From contig PLQC01000157.1 in assembly GCA_003159675.1 (NCBI GenBank), positions 1-35,584 of the forward strand: a stretch of 35,584 nt of DNA. Reading direction: 5' to 3'. Under the pieces are notes generated by a model. That model searched no databases and was not told the DNA's origin. It saw only the letters and a list, made by a program, of their open reading frames with translations. This document shows, piece after piece, positions 4,073 through 33,776 of this stretch. Within the stretch, counting starts at the first letter, position 1; the number at the start of each line of letters is the position of its first letter. Source of the DNA: Limisphaerales bacterium (GTDB lineage: Bacteria; Verrucomicrobiota; Verrucomicrobiia; Limisphaerales; BOG-1460). The translations under genes were made by a program, and so were the position numbers.

Positions 4073-5275
4073 TCAACGCAACGCACCCGGGTTGGAGACG
4101 ATTCCCACAAACAAAATGGAGCGCGTGGTTTTGTCACCGATCACGAAGAAGAACGGACGATCCAGAATCATCTCAAAAGGATTTTCCGGTCGCATCACGG
4201 CCATGGTGCGGAGCGTGGCAGTGGTAACCGCTGCCGCTTCGGTTCCTTCCTCGTTCACTTCCACAAAACTTTTCTGCTTCACCTCGCTCAAAAACAATTT
4301 CTCGGCTGACATGGCCGAAAAGTCCGCGTCAGTGGAAAAGGCGCGCTTCATGCCCAGCGCTTCGAGCGGTTCGTTCAAGATCACATTGTAATTCAATTTG
4401 AAGCGCGGGAACACCACCATGCCTTCGCGGTCTCTAAATTGCGGCAGGATTTTATTTTGCCAGACTCTGCCATCGAAGCTGGCAAGGAGTTTTTTGATGT
4501 CAGAACCGTTGTTTGGAAGAATGAGACACATTTGCAGACGCCCGCCGGCATAGGGCAGACGCACGGCTTGAAATCCCTCCGCCTGAAAATAATCAAAATG
4601 CCCGTGCTGCTGCATCATCGGAACTTGTATTTGAGTTTCATCGGGCGGGGTGAACGCGCGATCCTTCGTCGCGCCCTTGTCAAACTCGTGCGCCCAACGG
4701 CCTTTGAAATAAATAGCGTTGGCAAGGATGACGCGGGTCAGCGGGTTCATCGGCCATTGGACGATGTCTTTGATTCGTCCGTGAGTATTTACCTCCGCCC
4801 AGTTGTTGATGATTTTGGCCGATTGCGGGCTGGCAAAATCCAGTGCGCCGATTTTCGCCTGGAAATAATTGGTGCTGCGAGCCATAAACTCCGGTTTCAA
4901 TTCGACGCCCTGCTTATACCAGATGGAATTGGCCAGACTCAGAGTGACATCGTTCTGACCGCTCGTGATGGATTGATCCAAACTTTTGCAAGCCGCGTCC
5001 CGCGCTGCCAGTCCGTTCACATGCAGGACGCTTTCCATTTCCTGTTTCGTCCTGCCCGCCGCGCCGTCGCCGACTATTTGCAGAACGGTTGAAACGCTGT
5101 AAGGCGAAATGAAAACATTGCCGCCAGGCTGTTTGCCGGCGATTTGTTTCAGCAAGTCAAAGGCAAAACCGGTGTTGGCCGCCGTCAGACTGTCCTGATC
5201 GGCCTGCGCATCCGCTAACGCAGAAAACCCGGCAATACAGATCAACACCAGCAGGCCTTGCCGCGCGATTTTCAT
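4073..5275 (-). CDS. Secreted serpin, inhibitory type
   Basis: This is a serine protease inhibitor of the serpin fold, 400 residues, close to the usual size. An N-terminal signal peptide (about residues 1-24, ending ALADAQA) sends it out of the cytoplasm. The hinge of the reactive centre loop reads EEGTEAAAVT (residues 342-351), with the Gly, Thr and small residues at P15 to P9 that are needed for loop insertion, so it should be inhibitory and not a storage-type serpin. The family signature is present as LDRPFFFVI (residues 371-379). The scissile bond falls somewhere in RTMAVMRP (356-363). The residues there favour an elastase- or chymotrypsin-like target over trypsin, but exact P1 is uncertain because the loop is slightly longer than in antithrombin. 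The gene starts 7 bases after the stop of a response regulator on the same strand and may be co-transcribed with it. No strong ribosome site is visible. Confidence 0.95.
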   Translation of the reverse strand: MKIARQGLLVLICIAGFSALADAQADQDSLTAANTGFAFDLLKQIAGKQPGGNVFISPYSVSTVLQIVGDGAAGRTKQEMESVLHVNGLAARDAACKSLDQSITSGQNDVTLSLANSIWYKQGVELKPEFMARSTNYFQAKIGALDFASPQSAKIINNWAEVNTHGRIKDIVQWPMNPLTRVILANAIYFKGRWAHEFDKGATKDRAFTPPDETQIQVPMMQQHGHFDYFQAEGFQAVRLPYAGGRLQMCLILPNNGSDIKKLLASFDGRVWQNKILPQFRDREGMVVFPRFKLNYNVILNEPLEALGMKRAFSTDADFSAMSAEKLFLSEVKQKSFVEVNEEGTEAAAVTTATLRTMAVMRPENPFEMILDRPFFFVIGDKTTRSILFVGIVSNPGALR

Positions 5276-5282
5276 AGGGCAG

Positions 5283-5843
5283 TTAAGATGAGCTGCCGGG
5301 CTTCACTGGCTGGCCAGTTCTTCCAGCGGCGTAGCGGAACGGCACGTCGCGCCCCGCAAGCCGTGCGAGGCGCGTCTCGACCGATTCAGCGAGCAATCGG
5401 GTGATGGTTTGGAGCAGGATGGGAATGTTCAGGGGCTTTTCCAACAATGCACCCACGCCCGCCCCCACCGCCGCGAACAATTGGTTCGGCCTCGCGGTGA
5501 TGAGGATGACCGGCACAAGCGGATGCTCGGCACTGAGGCGTTCAAAGGTGTCCCAGCCGTTCTTGTGTGGCATGTTGAGGTCGAGAAGCACAACGTCAAC
5601 CGAGGTGGAAGCGACGATTTCCAGCGCGTGTTGACCGTCATTGGCGGGAATCACCAGGTAGCCTTCCTCAACCAGCATATCTTGGAGTGAACCGCGCACG
5701 CTGGCATCGTCATCCACGAGCAGGATGCGGCGGCGGGCGGGCGGCTTCGTCGTTGTTGCGTTGGTTGCGGCGGAAGCGTCGCGCGTTGGCTGCTCCTCTG
5801 TTCCCTCATGTTTCCGGCTTCGGGACTTTGTCTGGGCTTTCAT
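5283..5843 (-). CDS. Receiver-only response regulator
   Basis: This single-domain response regulator has no output domain after the receiver. With the ATG at 5843 it has 186 residues: a charged, low-complexity N-terminal tail of about 37 residues, then a receiver with the acidic pocket DDD (44-46), phosphoacceptor Asp 88 in VVLLDLNMP, Thr 116 and Lys 136. The frame is open further upstream, but that part overlaps the preceding gene. The chosen ATG comes one base after that gene's stop; an ATG at 5870 is the alternative. It is closely similar to the preceding receiver protein and both are divergent from a histidine kinase at 6561, which suggests branched or relay phosphotransfer. It may signal by protein contact. 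Confidence 0.85.
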   Translation of the reverse strand: MKAQTKSRSRKHEGTEEQPTRDASAATNATTTKPPARRRILLVDDDASVRGSLQDMLVEEGYLVIPANDGQHALEIVASTSVDVVLLDLNMPHKNGWDTFERLSAEHPLVPVILITARPNQLFAAVGAGVGALLEKPLNIPILLQTITRLLAESVETRLARLAGRDVPFRYAAGRTGQPVKPGSSS

Positions 5844-5844
5844 G

Positions 5845-6369
5845 TCAGGAATGGTTTGCGGTGTTGGCATTGAGCAGCCGCGTGACAAAGGCTCGGTTGG
5901 TAATGCGCTCGGTGTGTCGTTTTTCCGGTTCGTGCGTGAACTTGCGGATGGCCCGCAGTAGCACCGGGAAATCCAGCGGCTTTTCCATGAACGCATCCAC
6001 GCCCAGCCGCACGGCTTCCTTGTATTGGTGCGGGCGCGCCGTGATGATGATGACCGGCATCAGCGGACACACACGGTCGAGCTTTGTGAACGCAGTCCAG
6101 CCATCCACGTTGGGCATGTTCAAGTCCAGCAGCACGAGATCCGGGGGATGAGCGGTGGCATGGGCGACCGCTTGACGGCCATCCGCAGCCACGTCCACGT
6201 CGTAGCCTTCCGATTCAAGGACGGCGGCCAGCGCGGCGCGCACCACGGCATCGTCCTCGGCAATGAGAACACGCTTGCGATTCGCGGTGGCGAATGAACC
6301 GGCAGAATCAGGCGCCAGCGCGCCCAGTGCGAAAGTGGGGGTTTTCGGGAATTTATCGGGTAATTTCAT
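5845..6369 (-). CDS. Receiver-only response regulator
   Basis: This is a 174-residue protein whose only recognisable domain is a receiver (about residues 32-150). The acidic pair is D39-D40, the phosphoacceptor is Asp 82 in LVLLDLNMP, and Thr 110 and Lys 130 complete the active site. About 30 unstructured residues precede the domain and a charged tail follows. The ATG at 6369 is preceded by purine-rich GAAAGAAAG, a plausible ribosome site. It is the first gene of a minus-strand unit with a second receiver protein and perhaps the serpin, and it diverges from the kinase gene at 6561, its likely phosphodonor. Confidence 0.9.
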   Translation of the reverse strand: MKLPDKFPKTPTFALGALAPDSAGSFATANRKRVLIAEDDAVVRAALAAVLESEGYDVDVAADGRQAVAHATAHPPDLVLLDLNMPNVDGWTAFTKLDRVCPLMPVIIITARPHQYKEAVRLGVDAFMEKPLDFPVLLRAIRKFTHEPEKRHTERITNRAFVTRLLNANTANHS

Positions 6370-6560
6370 ATTCTTTCTTTCACAGGTTGTTCTTTTTTAC
6401 TGGGCCGCCGCAGCGGGCGCTCGAACGAGTTAAACCTAAGCCGCCGGGATGCCAACCGGCTGGCGGGTTGATTTGCTGGGCTTTAGTTCAAGAACGAATC
6501 CACCGCGTCACTTTTTTGGTTAAGAAGTTACCGCCGTCTGGTAAGCTGCTGGCCATTGAT
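6370..6560. promoter_or_regulatory. Divergent promoter region between receiver gene and histidine kinase
   Basis: This 191-base gap lies between divergent two-component genes and must carry promoters for both. No consensus sigma-70 pair stands out. The sequence at about 6460-6480 resembles a -24/-12 element, but the GG to GC distance is 11 bases instead of 10, so it is not called. Confidence 0.4.
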
Positions 6561-7949
6561 ATGAACTCCGCTGCCCGCCTGCGCATGACGATGTTGATCG
6601 GAGCTATCGCTTTGATGGCTGGCCTGACGCTTTGGGGCGTTCAGGATTCCTGGCGGCGCATCGCGCAACTCGAACGCAAACTGACCGCCTCGCAGCTGGG
6701 AAGCTTCCGGCTTGCCGAAGAATTCCAGCAGCGGCTGCTGACCTTGGACAACCTCTTGCTCCGCTACACCGCCCGGCGCAACCCGGCGACATGGAATCAA
6801 TTCCAAGAGGACAGCGTCCAGCTCGACCAATGGATTGACCAGCAAACCTCGAAGCTCACCACTCCGCGCGAGCTTGACCTCTTCCACCAACTCAACACGG
6901 CCTATGACGACTACCTTGCCGCCGCCGCTCAAGTGCAGACCAACGGACAGCCCGCAGGCATCACGGCGGAGGCTTTTGCCCAGCTTGAACACGTCGAACG
7001 CCACGAAGACCGGTTGCACCAACTCGGCATCCAACTCGCCGGCGCGCACCGCGAGGCGGAGAGACTATTCCTGGCCGACGTGAACCACACGCTCGCGAAC
7101 CTGCGCGTCTTCCTTTTCATCGGCGTGGTTCTGCTGCTCGCGCTCGTCGCCGTGCTCGGCGTCGTCCTCTACCGCGACCTCATCGCGCCACTCCGCACGA
7201 AACTCGTGCAGAGCGAAGTCCTGCTTGAAAAGCAGGAGAAGCTCGCCACGCTCGGCACACTGGCCGCCGGCATCGCCCACGAAATTCGCAACCCGCTCAC
7301 GTCCATCAAGGCCCGGCTTTACATGCTCGGCAAACGCGTTGCCACCGACGCGGCCAGCATGGCGGATACGGGCGTCATCAGTTCCGAAATTGGCCGGCTC
7401 GAACGCATCGTGCAGGATGTGCTCCATTTTGCCCGCCCTTCTGAACCGCAACTCAAAATCGTGCGCGCCGATGTGCCCTTGCGCGAAGTAGCCTCGCTCA
7501 TGGGCAGCACGCTCGAGCATGGCCGCGTACAACTCGCGCTCGAAGGCGGTCCGGAGTTGCACGTTTCAATGGATACTGCGCTCATCAAGCAGGTCCTCAT
7601 CAATCTCGTCCGCAACGCCGCCGAAGCCATCGAAGACCAGGGCAGCGTCACGCTGCGGGTGCGGGCGAGCCATGCCAAGCTTCACGGCAAATCAAGTGAC
7701 GTGGCTGTCCTCGAAGTCACCGACACCGGCAAAGGCATTCCGCCCGAAGTCGAGAAGCGCCTGTTCGACCCGTTCTTTACCACGAAGGAAGCGGGCACGG
7801 GTCTCGGCCTTTCGATTGCGGCGCGCATTGTCGAGAAGCAAGGCGGCGCGCTGGAATATCAGACCCGGCCCGGTCACGGCACGACTTTCGGCATCATGTT
7901 GCCTGCCGTGCCCGCGCCTGCGACCGATTCATCCATTCCGCCCGCATGA
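6561..7949 (+). CDS. Membrane sensor histidine kinase, NtrB/ZraS-like
   Basis: This kinase autophosphorylates on His 240 and should pass phosphate to the NtrC-like regulator encoded next. The open frame extends upstream to 6294 but there overlaps the divergent receiver gene, so the ATG at 6561 is chosen (462 residues), which puts a membrane helix right at the start (about 10-27). A helical extracytoplasmic sensor region of about 155 residues follows, then a second helix (about 181-204). The dimerisation/phosphoacceptor motif is AGIAHEIRNPLTSIK. The ATPase domain has the N box (LINLVRNAAEAI), G1 (DTGKGIP), F box (FDPFFTTK) and G2 (GTGLGL). The stop overlaps the next start by 4 bases (ATGA). 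The sensor shows no named ligand domain, so the signal is unknown. Confidence 0.93.
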   Translation: MNSAARLRMTMLIGAIALMAGLTLWGVQDSWRRIAQLERKLTASQLGSFRLAEEFQQRLLTLDNLLLRYTARRNPATWNQFQEDSVQLDQWIDQQTSKLTTPRELDLFHQLNTAYDDYLAAAAQVQTNGQPAGITAEAFAQLEHVERHEDRLHQLGIQLAGAHREAERLFLADVNHTLANLRVFLFIGVVLLLALVAVLGVVLYRDLIAPLRTKLVQSEVLLEKQEKLATLGTLAAGIAHEIRNPLTSIKARLYMLGKRVATDAASMADTGVISSEIGRLERIVQDVLHFARPSEPQLKIVRADVPLREVASLMGSTLEHGRVQLALEGGPELHVSMDTALIKQVLINLVRNAAEAIEDQGSVTLRVRASHAKLHGKSSDVAVLEVTDTGKGIPPEVEKRLFDPFFTTKEAGTGLGLSIAARIVEKQGGALEYQTRPGHGTTFGIMLPAVPAPATDSSIPPA

Positions 7950-9385
7950 GTTCTTCACCACGCATCCTCCTCATCGAAGACGATACCCAACTCGCTGCCA
8001 ACCTCCGGCAGGTGCTGGAGGACGCAGGCTTCACCGTCACCCACTCTGCGCGAGGCGACGATGGCTTGCGCCGTGCCGGGAGCGTCGCGTTTGACGCCGT
8101 GCTCACCGATTTGCGCTTGCCCGGACTCGGCGGACTTGACCTGGTGCGCCAACTTCACGAGATCCAGCCGCGCCTGCCCGTCGTCCTGATGACGGCGCAC
8201 GGCACAATCGAGACGGCTATCGAAGCCACCAAACTCGGCGCTTACGACTACCTGCAAAAACCGTTCGAGATGGAAGAACTGCTCGCGCTGCTCCACAAGG
8301 CAGCGGATGCCGGACGGCTCATGCGTGAACCCGTGGCGTTGGCGGACGCGCCGCCCGCCCGCACCGCGCTCGTGGGCGTCAGCCGGGCCATGCGGGAGGT
8401 GTGCAAGGAAATCGGCCGCGTCGCCGCCAAGCCGGTCACCGTTCTCATTCGCGGCGAAACCGGCACGGGGAAGGAACTCATCGCCCGCGCCATTTACCAG
8501 CACAGCGAACGCGCGAAGTCTTCGTTCATCGCCATCAACTGCGCCGCTGTGCCTGAGAATCTGTTGGAAAGCGAACTCTTTGGTCACGAACGTGGCGCGT
8601 TCACCGGAGCGGACCAACGCCGCATCGGACGTTTCGAGCAGGCGAACAAGGGCACGTTGTTCCTGGATGAAATCGGCGACCTGCCGGCGAACACTCAAGT
8701 CAAATTGCTCCGCGTCCTCCAACAGCAAACATTCCAGCGCGTTGGCGGCAGCGAAACCATTTCCGTGGACGTGCGCATCATTGCCGCCACGCACCGCGAC
8801 CTCGAAGCGATGATTCGCGAAGGAAAATTCCGCGAAGATTTGTTCCATCGCCTGAACGTCGTCGCCATCCAACTCCCGCTGTTGCGCGAACGACGCGAAG
8901 ACGTTCCTGCGCTCGTCCAGCATTTCCTCCGCAAATACGCCGCTGACTTCGGCATGGCCGCGCCCGCCATCACGCCCGACGCTCTCGTCGCACTGCAAGC
9001 CGACCCGTGGCCTGGCAACATTCGCGAACTGGAGAACGTAACGCGACGCCTGCTGCTGGAAGCTCGCGGCCTCTCCATCACCGTCGAGGCCGTGTGCGCC
9101 ATTCTCGCTGCCCACGCATCGGTCGGCGGGCAGGCCGCGAACTCGCTTCCATCACTCGCCGCTACGTTGCTGGCCCGCGCTCAACGCGGTGAAATCAGCG
9201 ACACGCACGCGCAAATCGTCGCCGAGGCTGAACGCGAAATTCTCACTCAGGCCATCGCGCTCGCGGAAGGCAACCAGGCCAAAGCCGCCCGCTGGCTGGG
9301 CATTTCGCGCCTGACGCTGCGCGAGAAGCTCAAACAACTCGGCCTGCATCCGGGCGCGAACAGCGACTCCGCCGCCGTGGACTGA
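7946..9385 (+). CDS. Sigma-54-dependent response regulator, NtrC family
   Basis: This 479-residue regulator has the full NtrC layout. The receiver (about 5-120) carries the phosphoacceptor Asp 55 (AVLTDLRLP) and Lys 105. The central AAA+ domain (about 142-375) has Walker A GETGTGKE (170-177), the sigma-54 contact loop GAFTGA (217-222), and Walker [12 protein letters not shown] Fis-type helix-turn-helix ends the protein ([20 protein letters not shown]). Phosphorylation by the kinase encoded just upstream, with which it overlaps by 4 bases, should drive oligomerisation and ATP-dependent opening of sigma-54 promoters. A candidate sigma-54 promoter lies 150 bases after its stop, making the next genes the obvious targets. 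Confidence 0.96.
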
Positions 9386-27523: not shown

Positions 27524-29947
27524 ATGCCTGCGCGAGCGAGGCTCGGAAAATCGCTGTGCGGAACAGCGGTTGGATGGCTTTTGCTCGGCATTCCCGCGGC
27601 CTGGGGCCAGGCATCCACCCCCCCTCCGATGGCAGAACGGGTCCTGACCAACATCTATGAGATTTGGACCATGCCGCATCAGCAGAAGAGTCAGCCGTAT
27701 CGGATACGGACCGAGATGGTGATCTATTATTTCGATTCCGAGTGGAACAACGCGTGGGGGGAATGCGAAGGAATACCGGCTTACCTGCCCATCTTCGACT
27801 GCCCAACGCCATTGAAGCCCGGCCAACGAATTGCCATCGATGGAGTCATCGTGCCGATCCGCGAACGATTCATCTGGGATCAAACCCGCGTCCGGATCCT
27901 CGAGGATGCGGTGCCGCTCAAGCCCGAGATGATACGGAATCTGAGCGACAACCCCAAAGCCTTGAAGGGGCATTTAATATCAGTGGAAGGGTTGATCGAC
28001 GGCCTGCTGGAAGATTCCACCCACATCACAATCAACTTTCTTGCGGGCGAAACCACGGCCAAGGCGTACCTGGTGAAGGAGGCCAAGGGCCAGCCACTTC
28101 AATTAAAAGAGGGGGACTTCGTGCGAATGGAGTGCGTGTACTCGCCTCAGTTCGACGTAAACGTGGATATCAATGACCTGAGCCTGTTGGTCCCCCGGCC
28201 GGCGGACGTTGAAGTGATCGGCTCCTTGAACACGGATCGCCGCTTTAACATTCCCATCACACCCAGCCAGGAGATACGCGAAGACACGCCGACGAACGAC
28301 ATCATCCATGTTCGGGATGTGGTGCGCAGCCATTAGCCGGGCAAATGGGTGACCCTCTGGGATGACACCGGACAGGTGATCGTCAAGAGCAGGCAGACCC
28401 AGCCCTTGCGCTTCGGCGACCGAGTGGATGCCATCGGCTACCCTTCCGTAATGGGCGTGGAACAGTGCCTGGAAGGGAGCCTCTATCGGCTGGCATCTTC
28501 CACCTCCAATCCGGTTTCCACCGGCCGGCCGGATAAATCTCCCCTGAGTCTGGCGGAACGGGTCCGGGACTTGAGCCGGGAGGAGACGACCCGACGGCTG
28601 CCCGTGAACCTTCACGCAATCGTCACGTGGGGGCATCTGGAACTGCCTTTCGCCTACGTGCAGGACGCCAGTGGCGGCATCCGCGTGGTGAACCCAAAGT
28701 GGGAGGAACGGGACGCCTGGAAACCGGGAACGATTGCGGCGGTGCGAGGCGAGGTTTGTGAGGGAGATTACGTGCCGGTCATTACAAACGCCGTGATCAG
28801 CCGGATGAGCTTTTGGAACCTGGAACCGGGCCGATCCGTGACACTGGAACAGGCGCTCACAGGAGTGGAGGATGGACATTGGGTAGAGATGCGGGGGTTT
28901 GTGCGTGATGTGACACCGACCAACAGTCTGGTGCGGCTGGATCTCAGCACCTCAAGCGGCGAGTTCCAGGCGTGGCTCCCCGCCTCGCAGTCGCTGGCCT
29001 ATTTGCGAGGTTCCATCATCCGATTGCAGGGCGTCTGCGCGGCTGTTTCGAATCCACGACATCAACTGACAGGGATTGAGCTTCTGGCACCCGACGTCAA
29101 GTACCTCCAAGTCGAAGAACCCGCGCCCGATGATCAGTTCTCCGGACCGCTGCGGCCCCTGGACAGCCTGCGGCGCTTCAGCCTGCAGAACGGGCTCAAT
29201 CAGCGTGTGCGGACGACCGGCACGGTGGTGTTGCACGCGCCGGGCAGCTACCTGTACGTGCAGGACGGTGTTGACAGCGTGCTCGCACTCAGCCAGCAGC
29301 GGGAGGTGCTCCAACCAGGCGAGCGGGTCGAAGTCGTGGGCTTCCCCGGCAACGAAGGTCGAAGGTTCCTCCTGCGAGAAGCCGCCTACCGTTCAAGAAC
29401 AGGTGATCGCCAAGGAACGGGCTCGCGAGGAACTGGCCGTGGCGCAGAGGAGCCTGATGCTCGCGTCCCGGCAGGCGGGCATGGCCGAAGTGGCCACCGG
29501 CGTCCTTCACAACGTCGGCAATGTCCTGAACGCCATGCCGTCAACCTCAAACGCGAGTTCTCCGACGTGCCGCCCATCGTGTCGGACCGCCACAAGGTCC
29601 TGCAAATCCTCACAAACCTCTTTCACAACGTCAAGTATGCCTGCGATGCAAACAACACCGGCGACCGGAAGATCACGGTGCGCCTGGGCCGCGCGAATGC
29701 AAACCGGATCAAGATCGAAGTGGCCGACAACGGCGTGGGAATTCCGCAGGAGAACCTCACCCGCATCTTTTCCTTCGGGTTCATCGCGCGCAAGAACGGG
29801 CATGGGTTCGGACTGCACAGCGGCGCTTTGGCGGCGAAGGAAATGGGCGGCTGCCTGTCCGCCCAAAGCGAGGGCGCAGGCAAGGGCACCACGTTCGTCC
29901 TCGAACTCCCGCTGAACCCGAGATCCGACACAAAAGCATCCGCCTGA
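27524..29947 (+). pseudogene. Decayed sensor histidine kinase, tandem paralogue of the gene at 30255
   Basis: This is a broken copy of the next kinase. It starts with a signal peptide (MPARARLGKSLCGTAVGWLL) and follows the intact protein through the repeated domains. An in-frame TAG at 28334-28336 interrupts it where the paralogue has GAA (SHEPGKW). The same frame continues to about 29393. There a deletion of about 524 bases relative to the paralogue removes the last repeat, the membrane helix and the start of the coiled coil, and shifts the frame. A second deletion of about 355 bases, near 29535, removes most of the phosphoacceptor helices and restores the frame, so the ATPase domain (DNGVGIP, GHGFGLHSG) is again in frame to 29947. 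A short out-of-frame segment still encodes VATGVLHNVGNVLN. The first 270 residues could still be exported as a truncated protein. Confidence 0.88.
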
Positions 29948-30254
29948 GGAAACGATTCAGGCGCCGGGGACCCGGAACGGGAGCGATTGCCGTCGATGCC
30001 TCCTGCAGGACTTCTCCAGACGGTGCCCAAGTGAATAAGTCTCTAAAGTTCCCTTCTGCGCAACCGATTACAGTTCGGGTTCTCCCATGCACTGCCCACG
30101 CACGCGGGCAGCGACCGGAACCCGATACCGTGGCACCGCTTATTTCTTTCCATGAGCCTGGCAGGGCCGACCTGCCGGTCAGCCCGAACGCGCAGCAGCG
30201 CGTCCCCACCCGGCTCATGACGTGCGAGCACCTCCGAAGAAGCAAGGGGGCTCC
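29948..30254. other. Spacer between kinase copies with palindromic repeat
   Basis: This 307-base spacer separates the broken and intact kinase copies. It contains the repeat element at 30151-30219, and the ribosome site AAGGGGG at 30244-30250 for the next gene. A 75-codon frame runs across the repeat (30031-30258), but its part over the repeat (RADLPVSPNAQQRVPT) is just translated repeat; it is not called a gene. Confidence 0.5.
30151..30219. repeat. REP-like element with two inner hairpins
   Basis: The outer inverted ends are CATGAGCC (30151-30158) and GGCTCATG (30212-30219). Inside are two perfect 6-bp hairpins: GGCAGG/CCTGCC (30160-30176) and ACGCGC/GCGCGT (30188-30203). This compound form is typical of REP or BIME elements. 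Its translation resembles strings I recall from many Verrucomicrobiota hypothetical proteins, so it may be an abundant family. Confidence 0.6.
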
Positions 30255-33200
30255 ATGAACCGTGGACACCGCCGCCAGGTTTTGGATTGCGCCAGTCCTC
30301 TGGCGCTTTCCTTGCGCGCGTTGATATTTCAAAAGCGGCAGAGTGCTGCCGCAGTCCAGGACGCTATCGCGCCAAGCCGGACCCATGGCGGTTCACGGTC
30401 CCCTTGCGCTCCCGATCTTTTGGGATTGAAGGCTTCCCATAAGCGTGGCCGGGCGAAGCAATGTGGCGCATGGCCGGGCGGAACGCTGTTTGGAACAGCG
30501 ATCGCACTCCTTTTGTCCGGCCTTCAGACCATTCGCAGCCAGACTCTGAACCTGCCCCCGGTCGGCGCAAGAGTCCTGACCAACATCTACGAGATTTGGG
30601 AAATGCCCCAGTCGCTCCGGAACGAAGCCTTCCGGATGGAAACCGAAATGGTAATCTACTATTTCGATCCCGAATGGAGAGTCGCCTGGGGAGAGTGCTG
30701 CGGGCGACCTTCCTTTCTGCCCATCGCGGACTCGCCCACTCCTTTGAAGGCCGGCCAACGGATTGCCCTCGACGGAGTCATCGTCCCGACACAGGAAAAG
30801 TTTGAATGGGACAAAACCCGGATCCGCATTCTGGCCGGTTCGGCCGACACCAAACCGGAGGCAATTCAGAGCCTGACGCGTAATGCCGCGGACATCAAGG
30901 GGCACCTGGTGTCCGTGACGGGCCTCATCGACCACCAGATCGAGGATCGGACGCATCTGACCCTCAACTTGCTTGTCGATGGCGAGACCGCCAGCGTCTA
31001 TGTCCTCAATAGCGGAAGCGGGCCGGCACCTCGCTTCAAGGCGGGCGATTTCGTCCGCATAAAGTGTGTTTACTCGCCGCAATTCAACAAGAACGGAAAC
31101 CTGAGCGATCTGACGTTGTGGGCTGCGCGGCCGGCGGACCTAGAGGTCATTGGTTCCCTGACGACGGATCCGCGTTTTGCCCTTCCGGTCACCCCCAGCG
31201 AACGAATCCGGGACGACACTCCCACGAATGACTTGGTCTGCGTCCAGGGCATTGTCCGCAGCCATGAACCGGGCAAATGGGTCACACTCTGGGATGTCAC
31301 GGGCCAGATCATGGTGCAGAGCAAGCAAACGCAACCGCTGCGCCTGGGCGATTCCATCGAGGCCATCGGCCATCCGTTTGTTCTGGGTGTGCAGCAGTGC
31401 CTTCAAGCCGGTTTGTACCGTCTGACAACCCATTCCATCCAAACCGCATCCACTCACACCGCCAAGCCGGACCAAACCGTCCTGCGGCTGGCTGAGCGCG
31501 TCCGTGACTTGAGCCGCGAGGAAGCGGCGCGGCACCCGCTCGTCATTCTTCACGGGGTGCTCACCTGGTATCATGCGGAAACCCCCTTCGTCTTCGTGCA
31601 GGACGCCAGTGGAGGCATCCGCGTGCTCAACCCGAAATGGGATGACCTCAACACAACGAAGCCGGGGACCATCGTGACGGTGCGCGGCGAGGTTGCTGAG
31701 GGCGATTTCGTGCCGGTCGTCACCAACGCCATGATCCGCAGGACCGGATGGTGGAACCTGGATGAGGCGCAAGCAATCTCGCTGGAGCAGGCCATGACGG
31801 GCGTGGAGGACGGGCGTTGGGCGGAAATGCGCGGTTACGTGCGGGACGCAACACAGGACAATGGCCTGGTGCGCCTGGATCTCAGCACCTCCAGCGGCGA
31901 ATTCCAGACGTGGACTCCGGCATCCCAATCCTTTGCCGCCCTGCGGGGCTCCATCGTTCGCGTGCAGGGAGTCTGCGCCGCCATCTCCAATTCGCGGCAC
32001 CAGTTGACCGGGATCCAGATCTGGGCGCCGGAGGCGAAATACATCCAGGTTGAGGAACCCGCGCCCGACGATCTGTTCGCCGGGCCGCTGCGCTCCCTGG
32101 GCAGTCTGCGCCGATTTAACCTGCAGAATGCTCTCAACCAAAGGGTGCGGACGACCGGCACGGTCGTTCTGCACGCGCCGGGCCGATACCTGTACCTGCA
32201 GAATGGAGCCGACAGCGTCTTTGCCTTGAGCCAGCAGAGCGACCCGCTGGAACCGGGAGATGAGGTGGAGGTCGTGGGGTTTCCGGGCGTTCAGGGCCGG
32301 AGGTTCCTGCTGCGAGAGGCCGCTTACCGCCGCATCTCGACCGGCAAAGAGCCGGCTCCCGCGCGATTGTCCTCAATGCAATCCGTGAATGTCGATATGG
32401 AAGGGGTGCTCGCCATCGCGGAAGGCACGCTGCTCAATATGGCCGAAAAAGAAGGCGAGTCGCGCCTGCTGATCCGCTCCGGAGATTCCACCTTCGAGGC
32501 GAGCCTGGATTCGACCGCAGACGATTCTCGAAAGCAAATTCAGGCTTTGGAGCCGGGCAGCCGGCTTGCCGTGACCGGGGTTTACGAAATGCAAAGCGAT
32601 GAATATGGAAAGCCTCGTTCTTTCCTGCTTCATCTTCGTTCCAAAAACGACATTCGTCTCCTCCAACTACCACCCTGGTGGACCCTGGCACGTCTGTTGT
32701 GGGTGCTGCTCGGCGTGCTGGGGGTGTCTGTCGTCGCGCTCACCTGGGGCCTCCTGATCTCTCACAAAAGCAAGTTGCTCAAGCAGGCGCAAAGCGCCCT
32801 GCAGGCGGCCAACGACCGGCTTGAACTCCGCGTGCAGGAACGGACGCACGAACTCCAGGAACAGGTCGCCGCCAAAGAACGCGCCCGCGCCGAACTCGCC
32901 GAAACGCAGGAAAACCTCGTGCTCACGTCCCGCCAGGCGGGAATGGCCGAGGTCGCCACCGGCGTCCTCCACAACGTCGGGAATGTCCTCAACAGCGTGA
33001 ATATCTCCTCCGGACTTCTGGGGGAACGGTTGCGGCGATCTTCCATCGAATCCGTCGGCAAAGTCGCCGACCTGCTCCGGAAACATCACGACCAGCTTGG
33101 CCGGTTCATGACAGAGGATCCCAAGGGCAAAGCCCTTCCCGGTTACCTCGAGAAACTGGGCGAGTTCCTCGTCCAGGACAAGCGTGAGATGCAGGCCGAA

Positions 33201-33776
33201 GTCGAATCCCTGGTCAAAAACGTCGACCATATCAAGGTCATCGTGTCCATGCAGCAAAGCTATGCCCGGGTCGGAGGCGTTCTGGAGGAACTTGATCCCA
33301 AGGACCTGGCCGAGGACGCCATTCAGATCAACAGCGCCGCCCTCGACCGCGACAGGATCCAGTTGATCCGCGATTACCATCCCGTGCCGCGCGTCATGGT
33401 GGACCGGCACAAAGTTCTCCAAATCCTGGTGAATCTTATCAGCAACGCCAAATATGCCTTGGACGAAACAACCGCAGACAAAAAAATGACCATGGCTATC
33501 TCCGCCATCGGCTCCGACCGCGTTCGCCTCACGGTAAAGGATAACGGCATCGGCATCCCTACGGAGAACCTCAACCGTATCTTCTCTCAGGGCTTCACCA
33601 CCCGGAAAGACGGCCACGGATTCGGCCTTCACAGCGGCGCAAACGCGGCCAAAGAACTCGGGGGATCCCTGACCGTCCAAAGCGAGGGGACAGGACGCGG
33701 GACGACCTTCATCCTCGAACTGCCCACGGCAACGGCTTCGCCCGCCCGAGCCTCCGTGCCCACGCCGGACCATTAG
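30255..33776 (+). CDS. Large sensor histidine kinase with OB-fold-like repeat array
   Basis: This is an intact membrane histidine kinase, 1173 residues from the ATG at 30255, which follows a strong ribosome site (AAGGGGG). A GTG at 30222 is an alternative. After an odd 70-residue leader comes a hydrophobic segment (GGTLFGTAIALLLSGL, about 76-91) acting as signal or anchor. Residues 105-800 form about seven OB-like beta repeats, with recurring patterns such as VQGIVRSHEPGKWVTLWD, FVFVQDASGGIRVL and VRTTGTVVLHAPG. A membrane helix (814-835) leads to a coiled coil, a phosphoacceptor helix TGVLHNVGNVLNSV (His 906, followed by Asn instead of Glu or Asp) and an ATPase domain with N1060/N1064, DNGIGIP (1096) and GHGFGL (1120). 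It has no receiver domain, and no regulator gene adjoins it. The signal is unknown. Confidence 0.9.
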   Translation: MNRGHRRQVLDCASPLALSLRALIFQKRQSAAAVQDAIAPSRTHGGSRSPCAPDLLGLKASHKRGRAKQCGAWPGGTLFGTAIALLLSGLQTIRSQTLNLPPVGARVLTNIYEIWEMPQSLRNEAFRMETEMVIYYFDPEWRVAWGECCGRPSFLPIADSPTPLKAGQRIALDGVIVPTQEKFEWDKTRIRILAGSADTKPEAIQSLTRNAADIKGHLVSVTGLIDHQIEDRTHLTLNLLVDGETASVYVLNSGSGPAPRFKAGDFVRIKCVYSPQFNKNGNLSDLTLWAARPADLEVIGSLTTDPRFALPVTPSERIRDDTPTNDLVCVQGIVRSHEPGKWVTLWDVTGQIMVQSKQTQPLRLGDSIEAIGHPFVLGVQQCLQAGLYRLTTHSIQTASTHTAKPDQTVLRLAERVRDLSREEAARHPLVILHGVLTWYHAETPFVFVQDASGGIRVLNPKWDDLNTTKPGTIVTVRGEVAEGDFVPVVTNAMIRRTGWWNLDEAQAISLEQAMTGVEDGRWAEMRGYVRDATQDNGLVRLDLSTSSGEFQTWTPASQSFAALRGSIVRVQGVCAAISNSRHQLTGIQIWAPEAKYIQVEEPAPDDLFAGPLRSLGSLRRFNLQNALNQRVRTTGTVVLHAPGRYLYLQNGADSVFALSQQSDPLEPGDEVEVVGFPGVQGRRFLLREAAYRRISTGKEPAPARLSSMQSVNVDMEGVLAIAEGTLLNMAEKEGESRLLIRSGDSTFEASLDSTADDSRKQIQALEPGSRLAVTGVYEMQSDEYGKPRSFLLHLRSKNDIRLLQLPPWWTLARLLWVLLGVLGVSVVALTWGLLISHKSKLLKQAQSALQAANDRLELRVQERTHELQEQVAAKERARAELAETQENLVLTSRQAGMAEVATGVLHNVGNVLNSVNISSGLLGERLRRSSIESVGKVADLLRKHHDQLGRFMTEDPKGKALPGYLEKLGEFLVQDKREMQAEVESLVKNVDHIKVIVSMQQSYARVGGVLEELDPKDLAEDAIQINSAALDRDRIQLIRDYHPVPRVMVDRHKVLQILVNLISNAKYALDETTADKKMTMAISAIGSDRVRLTVKDNGIGIPTENLNRIFSQGFTTRKDGHGFGLHSGANAAKELGGSLTVQSEGTGRGTTFILELPTATASPARASVPTPDH
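30280..30361. repeat. REP-like double hairpin inside the kinase reading frame
   Basis: Two hairpins lie about 28 bases apart: GCGCCAG/CTGGCGC (30289-30306, 4-base loop) and GCGGCAG/CTGCCGC (30335-30352, 4-base loop). The two arms are also inverted copies of each other (about 23 of 30 bases), with paired C/G differences that keep each hairpin perfect. The element is translated as LDCASPLALS and KRQSAAAVQDAIA within the kinase N-terminus. Confidence 0.65.

Follow-up and report, generated by a model that had tools for sequence, protein, structure and literature searches.

A seven-barrel OB-fold array as the predicted extracytoplasmic sensor of a Limisphaerales histidine kinase, and its relatives in Verrucomicrobiota and Acidobacteriota

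The window analyzed here, a 35,584-nt stretch of a Limisphaerales genome (contig PLQC01000157.1), encodes on its + strand a single-pass membrane sensor histidine kinase with about 700 extracytoplasmic residues (30420..33776; placed from the ORF list, relatives, start candidates and a repeat that overlies earlier starts). The reading frame is open from 30156, and its first listed GTG stands at 30222 (frame 30222-33776). This codon is unlikely to be the start because a dispersed repeat, matched at 8 other places in the genome, occupies 30272-30378; translation therefore probably begins at TTG 30420 or 30426. The repeat is palindromic, lies 5' of the likely start and covers the gene's earliest start candidates.

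The sensor region is bounded by one or more membrane segments: hydropathy identifies one strong transmembrane helix at aa 828-846 (32703..32759, + strand), after a PPWWT motif, which places the preceding ~700 residues outside the membrane, and an N-terminal hydrophobic segment that is weak in this protein and clear in its ortholog L075. Beyond the helix, the candidate phospho-acceptor motif GMAEVATGVLHNVGNVLNSV (32940..32999, + strand), is recognized from its sequence and common to L075; the candidate His917, in GVLHNVGNVLNS, is conserved in L075, and Pfam reports no HisKA match. A HATPase_c catalytic domain follows (33402..33731, + strand; PF02518, E 1.6e-19) with recognizable N, G1 and G2 boxes (NLISNAKYAL, DNGIGI and GHGFGLH), and the protein terminates after it, with no receiver or HTH_AraC found by Pfam. 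The only other Pfam match is a sub-cut-off piece of tRNA_anti-codon OB; the scan returned no nuclease domain. PAS, Cache and CHASE domains, which a sequence-only reading of this DNA had already noted as not evident, likewise gave no match at E up to 1. That reading had also seen no adjoining regulator, and this holds for the window gene: the nearest receivers found with a home-made profile, which may miss divergent regulators, are at 5286-6396 and 7700-9382.

The neighboring gene, convergent with the sensor gene, encodes an MFS transporter of the glucose/galactose type that scores over its NCBIfam cut-off; no glycoside hydrolase lies beside the sensor gene. Elsewhere, the window carries a complete serpin gene on the - strand (4073-5275; Pfam, 371 bits); serpins are uncommon in bacteria. 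Upstream of the sensor gene is a tandem paralog detected by tblastn (27545..29941, + strand), 63% identical over 618 aa, which is a pseudogene. It is interrupted by an in-frame TAG at 28334-28336 and bears two large, frameshifted deletions: one, with its frameshift near 29392, has removed the last repeat unit, the transmembrane helix and most of the coil, and the other is an internal DHp deletion near 29535, after the His motif. The dN/dS between the two copies is ~0.2 (dN 0.26, dS 1.3), so selection acted on both for a long time and the paralog decayed recently, barring errors in the assembly.

The extracytoplasmic region consists of seven consecutive units spanning residues ~112-818 (30555-32675), in agreement with the ~700-residue array before the membrane helix that had been proposed at 30570-32690. 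Comparison of unit profiles by hhalign splits them into two classes: units 1, 3, 4 and 6 (class a) match one another with 88-99.8% probability and units 2, 5 and 7 (class b) with 98-99.5%, whereas matches between the classes reach at most 10%. We therefore distinguish two repeat families instead of one. The repeat pattern first proposed for all units, D-x-x-G ... G-x-x-V-x-V-x-G, fits class a but does not serve as a common signature.

Units are ordered a-b-a, then a-b-a-b, all on the + strand. The N-terminal triplet comprises unit 1 (30564..30878, class a), unit 2 (30879..31172, class b) and unit 3 (31173..31442, class a), which hhalign pairs with units 4, 5 and 6 at 99.8%, 99.5% and 99.5%, respectively. 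The four-unit core opens with unit 4 (31476..31787, class a), the site of the partial, sub-cut-off tRNA_anti-codon match, and continues with unit 5 (31788..32090, class b), which holds the family-conserved residues C585, N590 and Q594, unit 6 (32091..32357, class a), which carries the signature GDxVEVVGFP, and the membrane-proximal unit 7 (32358..32675, class b). Unit 5 is supported by a single-unit AlphaFold2 model, Foldseek and conservation, and the others by AlphaFold2 strands and hhalign. We read the array as a triplet added to a core because aa 117-406 align, with 90.8 bits, to the first three units of a core profile (A1) built from the last four units of 22 sequences.

An AlphaFold2 model of the array, made with 60 relatives, reached a pLDDT of 91.8 and a pTM of 0.75 and shows five main strands in each of the seven units, forming five-stranded barrels; its sole low-confidence stretch is the linker between units 3 and 4. 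When compared with the PDB by Foldseek, the whole array gave 168 matches at E up to 1e-3; of these, the 50 listed are virtually all proteins known to have an OB fold, including the CST complex (best E, 1.4e-13; presumably via its CTC1 chain), HIN-200, RPA, Teb1, BRCA2 and AspRS/AsnRS. Unit 5 folded singly (pLDDT 89.1) resembles the OB domain of AspRS (TMq 0.65), with TM scores of 0.63-0.67 to the AspRS/AsnRS OB domains. When the PDB was searched with the sequence profile, no match was significant, but OB proteins made up most of the top ones. PF01336 scores 21 bits in the window protein, below its curated threshold of 27, and passes it in the relative L076 (30.3 vs 27), while PF08661 passes in the relative L078 (32.2 vs 23.5). 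The OB assignment has thus been tested for both classes by AlphaFold2, Foldseek and Pfam OB matches in relatives, the single-unit model covering class b only. We conclude that the region is, almost certainly, an array of OB barrels outside the membrane, as the suggestion of about seven OB-like repeats had anticipated; structure prediction produced neither of the outcomes named beforehand as counting against it, a single known domain or a propeller. Among other folds considered, beta-propeller, PAS and Cache were rejected on the evidence of Pfam and the AlphaFold2 model with its Foldseek matches.

OB folds are textbook binders of nucleic acid and oligosaccharide, and in RPA, CST and HIN-200 proteins they bind nucleic acid. 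The tandem barrels could sense extracellular nucleic acid, binding ssDNA or RNA outside the cell: the closest PDB folds among the matches listed are nucleic-acid-binding OB arrays, and the extracellular nuclease ExeM has two putative OB nucleic-acid-binding regions (PMC6085458). An OB fold is by itself no proof of nucleic acid, however, and the arrays are acidic (pI 5.7 in the window; below pI 7 in 82% of 60 relatives), which disfavors such a ligand and weakens the oligonucleotides that the sequence-only reading had listed as possible. The neighbors of array genes are also carbohydrate genes, described below, and in surveying them, which was no targeted search for such genes, we noticed none for nucleases or DNA uptake; we regard nucleic-acid sensing as improbable.

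The array is not confined to this gene. Two further array proteins are encoded in the same genome, of which the first has PAS domains and the second PA14 together with HisKA_3, and matches occur in 21/38 relatives, 53/188 genomes of the class and 18/145 genomes of a phylum sample. PA14 is a carbohydrate-associated domain; the own-genome array kinase at L035 6035-9334 (G000:C152) bears it in addition to the array. A contig scan by the motif GDxV[ED][VA][LV]GFP yielded 201 confirmed loci; it used a five-sequence alignment, the 22-sequence alignment being too divergent. The best 80 of the 201 fall mostly in Verrucomicrobiota (Limisphaerales/Pedosphaera and Opitutaceae) and Acidobacteriota. Most loci have the four-unit core, 16 of these best 80 an extra triplet, and L077 two extra triplets. 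The array is joined to HisKA_3 kinases, HisKA kinases with PAS, GAF or receivers, hybrids, atypical kinases like that of the window, and GGDEF domains; in L123 and L142, both from Bryobacterales, the output is a GGDEF diguanylate cyclase. Among 80 array kinases away from contig ends, 30 have a receiver, 15 more an adjacent regulator and 35 neither, the last including the window gene as well as its degenerate paralog, so that the orphan state noted for the window gene does not extend to the family, in which hybrids and adjacent regulators are common.

Taken together, these results show the four-unit core to be a mobile sensor cassette found in many Verrucomicrobiota and Acidobacteriota receptors with differing outputs. 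As no Pfam or NCBIfam model covers the module, the input domain of hundreds of sensors, in two major phyla of soil and sediment, at present lacks annotation. In open-licence literature linking OB folds with histidine kinase sensors, Verrucomicrobia, Acidobacteria or Opitutaceae, we found no description of the module, nor an earlier account of stacked OB folds as the ligand-sensing part of such a kinase. The array is very likely a widespread, unmodelled sensor module, apparently undescribed so far.

Some relatives encode membrane-anchored four-unit arrays that lack a kinase (L103 4722-6191, L106 317-1801 and L092 2941-4452), and in L103 this gene is followed by a pseudopilin-type gene. Such proteins would suit an array that acts mainly as a spacer and protein-docking rod spanning the periplasm and is read by a partner in the envelope or outer membrane, for example a TonB receptor. 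The change of array length by whole triplets agrees with this, extra triplets lengthening the rod, as do the TonB/Oar receptor genes adjoining several Acidobacterial array kinases. A rod leaves aside the conserved non-structural residues in the core loops (C585, N590, Q594 and D461), however, which suggest a specific site, and the window gene has no TonB neighbor; we hold this explanation to be unlikely.

The survey of neighbors in related genomes, which the earlier reading had proposed, connects the array with carbohydrate use. Across a small set of eight genomes, a GH2 or GH3 gene lies within 8 kb of 9/41 array genes, where 2.1 would be expected (P 0.00016, an approximate value because GH genes tend to cluster and the null simply models their density); in one family, the count is 8/24 against 1.2 expected. 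Several Acidobacterial loci share the order GH30 (with CBM6/35), array kinase, TonB/Oar, at times with GH3 as well, and in Limisphaerales, array kinases are flanked by GH3 with CBM6/35. L076 and L077, both among the arrays most closely related to that of the window, adjoin GH2 genes, and the window gene itself has the glucose/galactose-type transporter as its neighbor. Polysaccharide, another of the ligands first proposed, thereby gains indirect support, and we lean slightly toward a carbohydrate-related signal for the array family. Most array genes, two-thirds or more of those tested, have no GH2 or GH3 nearby, and OB folds bind highly diverse ligands, so the array might instead respond to envelope components such as peptidoglycan fragments, metal or other small molecules. 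As this would leave the GH enrichment and the conserved GH30/TonB clusters unexplained, we give it little credence.

While anatomy, fold, modularity and spread of the array are established by computation, what it senses is a matter of interpretation. In our best reading, which we hold to be somewhat better than an even bet, the window kinase is a glycan-responsive sensor resembling the hybrid-type HTCS receptors of Bacteroidetes, but with an OB array where these have beta-propellers. The array would bind an extracellular or periplasmic oligosaccharide in the grooves of its OB barrels, with the surroundings of the conserved core loops as the most likely site. Binding may change the shape of the array or the packing of a dimer, and this change could reach His917 and the ATPase domain by way of the PPWWT helix and the coiled coil. 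The phosphate would then pass to a response regulator whose gene lies elsewhere and which would turn on genes for carbohydrate use. Several points speak against this reading: the proteins closest in fold are nucleic-acid binders, most array genes have no GH2 or GH3 nearby, the enrichment comes from few genomes, the window gene adjoins no glycoside hydrolase, the helix with the putative phospho-acceptor has no Pfam match, and the search for a partner regulator found none. If the glycan reading is true, it offers a handle on substrate choice by these polysaccharide degraders, and the conserved GH30, GH3 and GH2 neighbors point to first candidate ligands.

Several known systems share parts of this design. 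AtoS/ZraS/EspC-type sensor kinases, the nearest NCBIfam kinase models, have the HATPase domain in common with the window kinase, which nevertheless scores far below all model cut-offs, has LHNVGN as its candidate phospho-acceptor motif, lacks PAS and is an orphan. The tandem OB nucleic-acid binders (CST complex, RPA70, HIN-200, BRCA2 and Teb1) have the same fold and the same consecutive barrels, but at 9-15% identity, and the window array is extracytoplasmic, acidic, bacterial and joined to signaling outputs. The anticodon-binding OB domain of AspRS/AsnRS is the best single-domain fold match, to unit 5, although the window protein is no tRNA synthetase; likewise, Pfam tRNA_anti-codon and Rep_fac-A_3 pass their cut-offs in relatives, while the window units stay below them. 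The extracellular nucleases YhcR and ExeM also place bacterial OB units outside the cytoplasm (PMC6085458), a likeness of location and fold to a protein that has a signaling output instead of a nuclease domain.

The closest functional parallel is with the HTCS of Bacteroidetes, in which propeller sensors of 700-900 aa bind complex oligosaccharides (PMC3243724). The window protein is not an HTCS, because propellers, receiver and HTH are absent: Pfam finds no match to Reg_prop beta-propellers or the YYY domain, whose place the OB array takes, and the glycan ligand, known for HTCS, is here our proposal; some relatives may carry receivers. Like the window kinase, however, an HTCS couples a large repeat-built extracytoplasmic sensor (~700-900 aa) through one transmembrane segment to a histidine kinase (PMC3243724), and relatives of the window kinase share with it the glycoside hydrolase and TonB neighbors. 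We tentatively suggest, as a possibility we rate somewhat below even, that the OB array is a new class of glycan receptor, built of two alternating barrel types, growing by whole triplets and swapped between kinase and cyclic-di-GMP outputs, which would make it the Verrucomicrobiota and Acidobacteriota counterpart of the propeller HTCS of Bacteroidetes.
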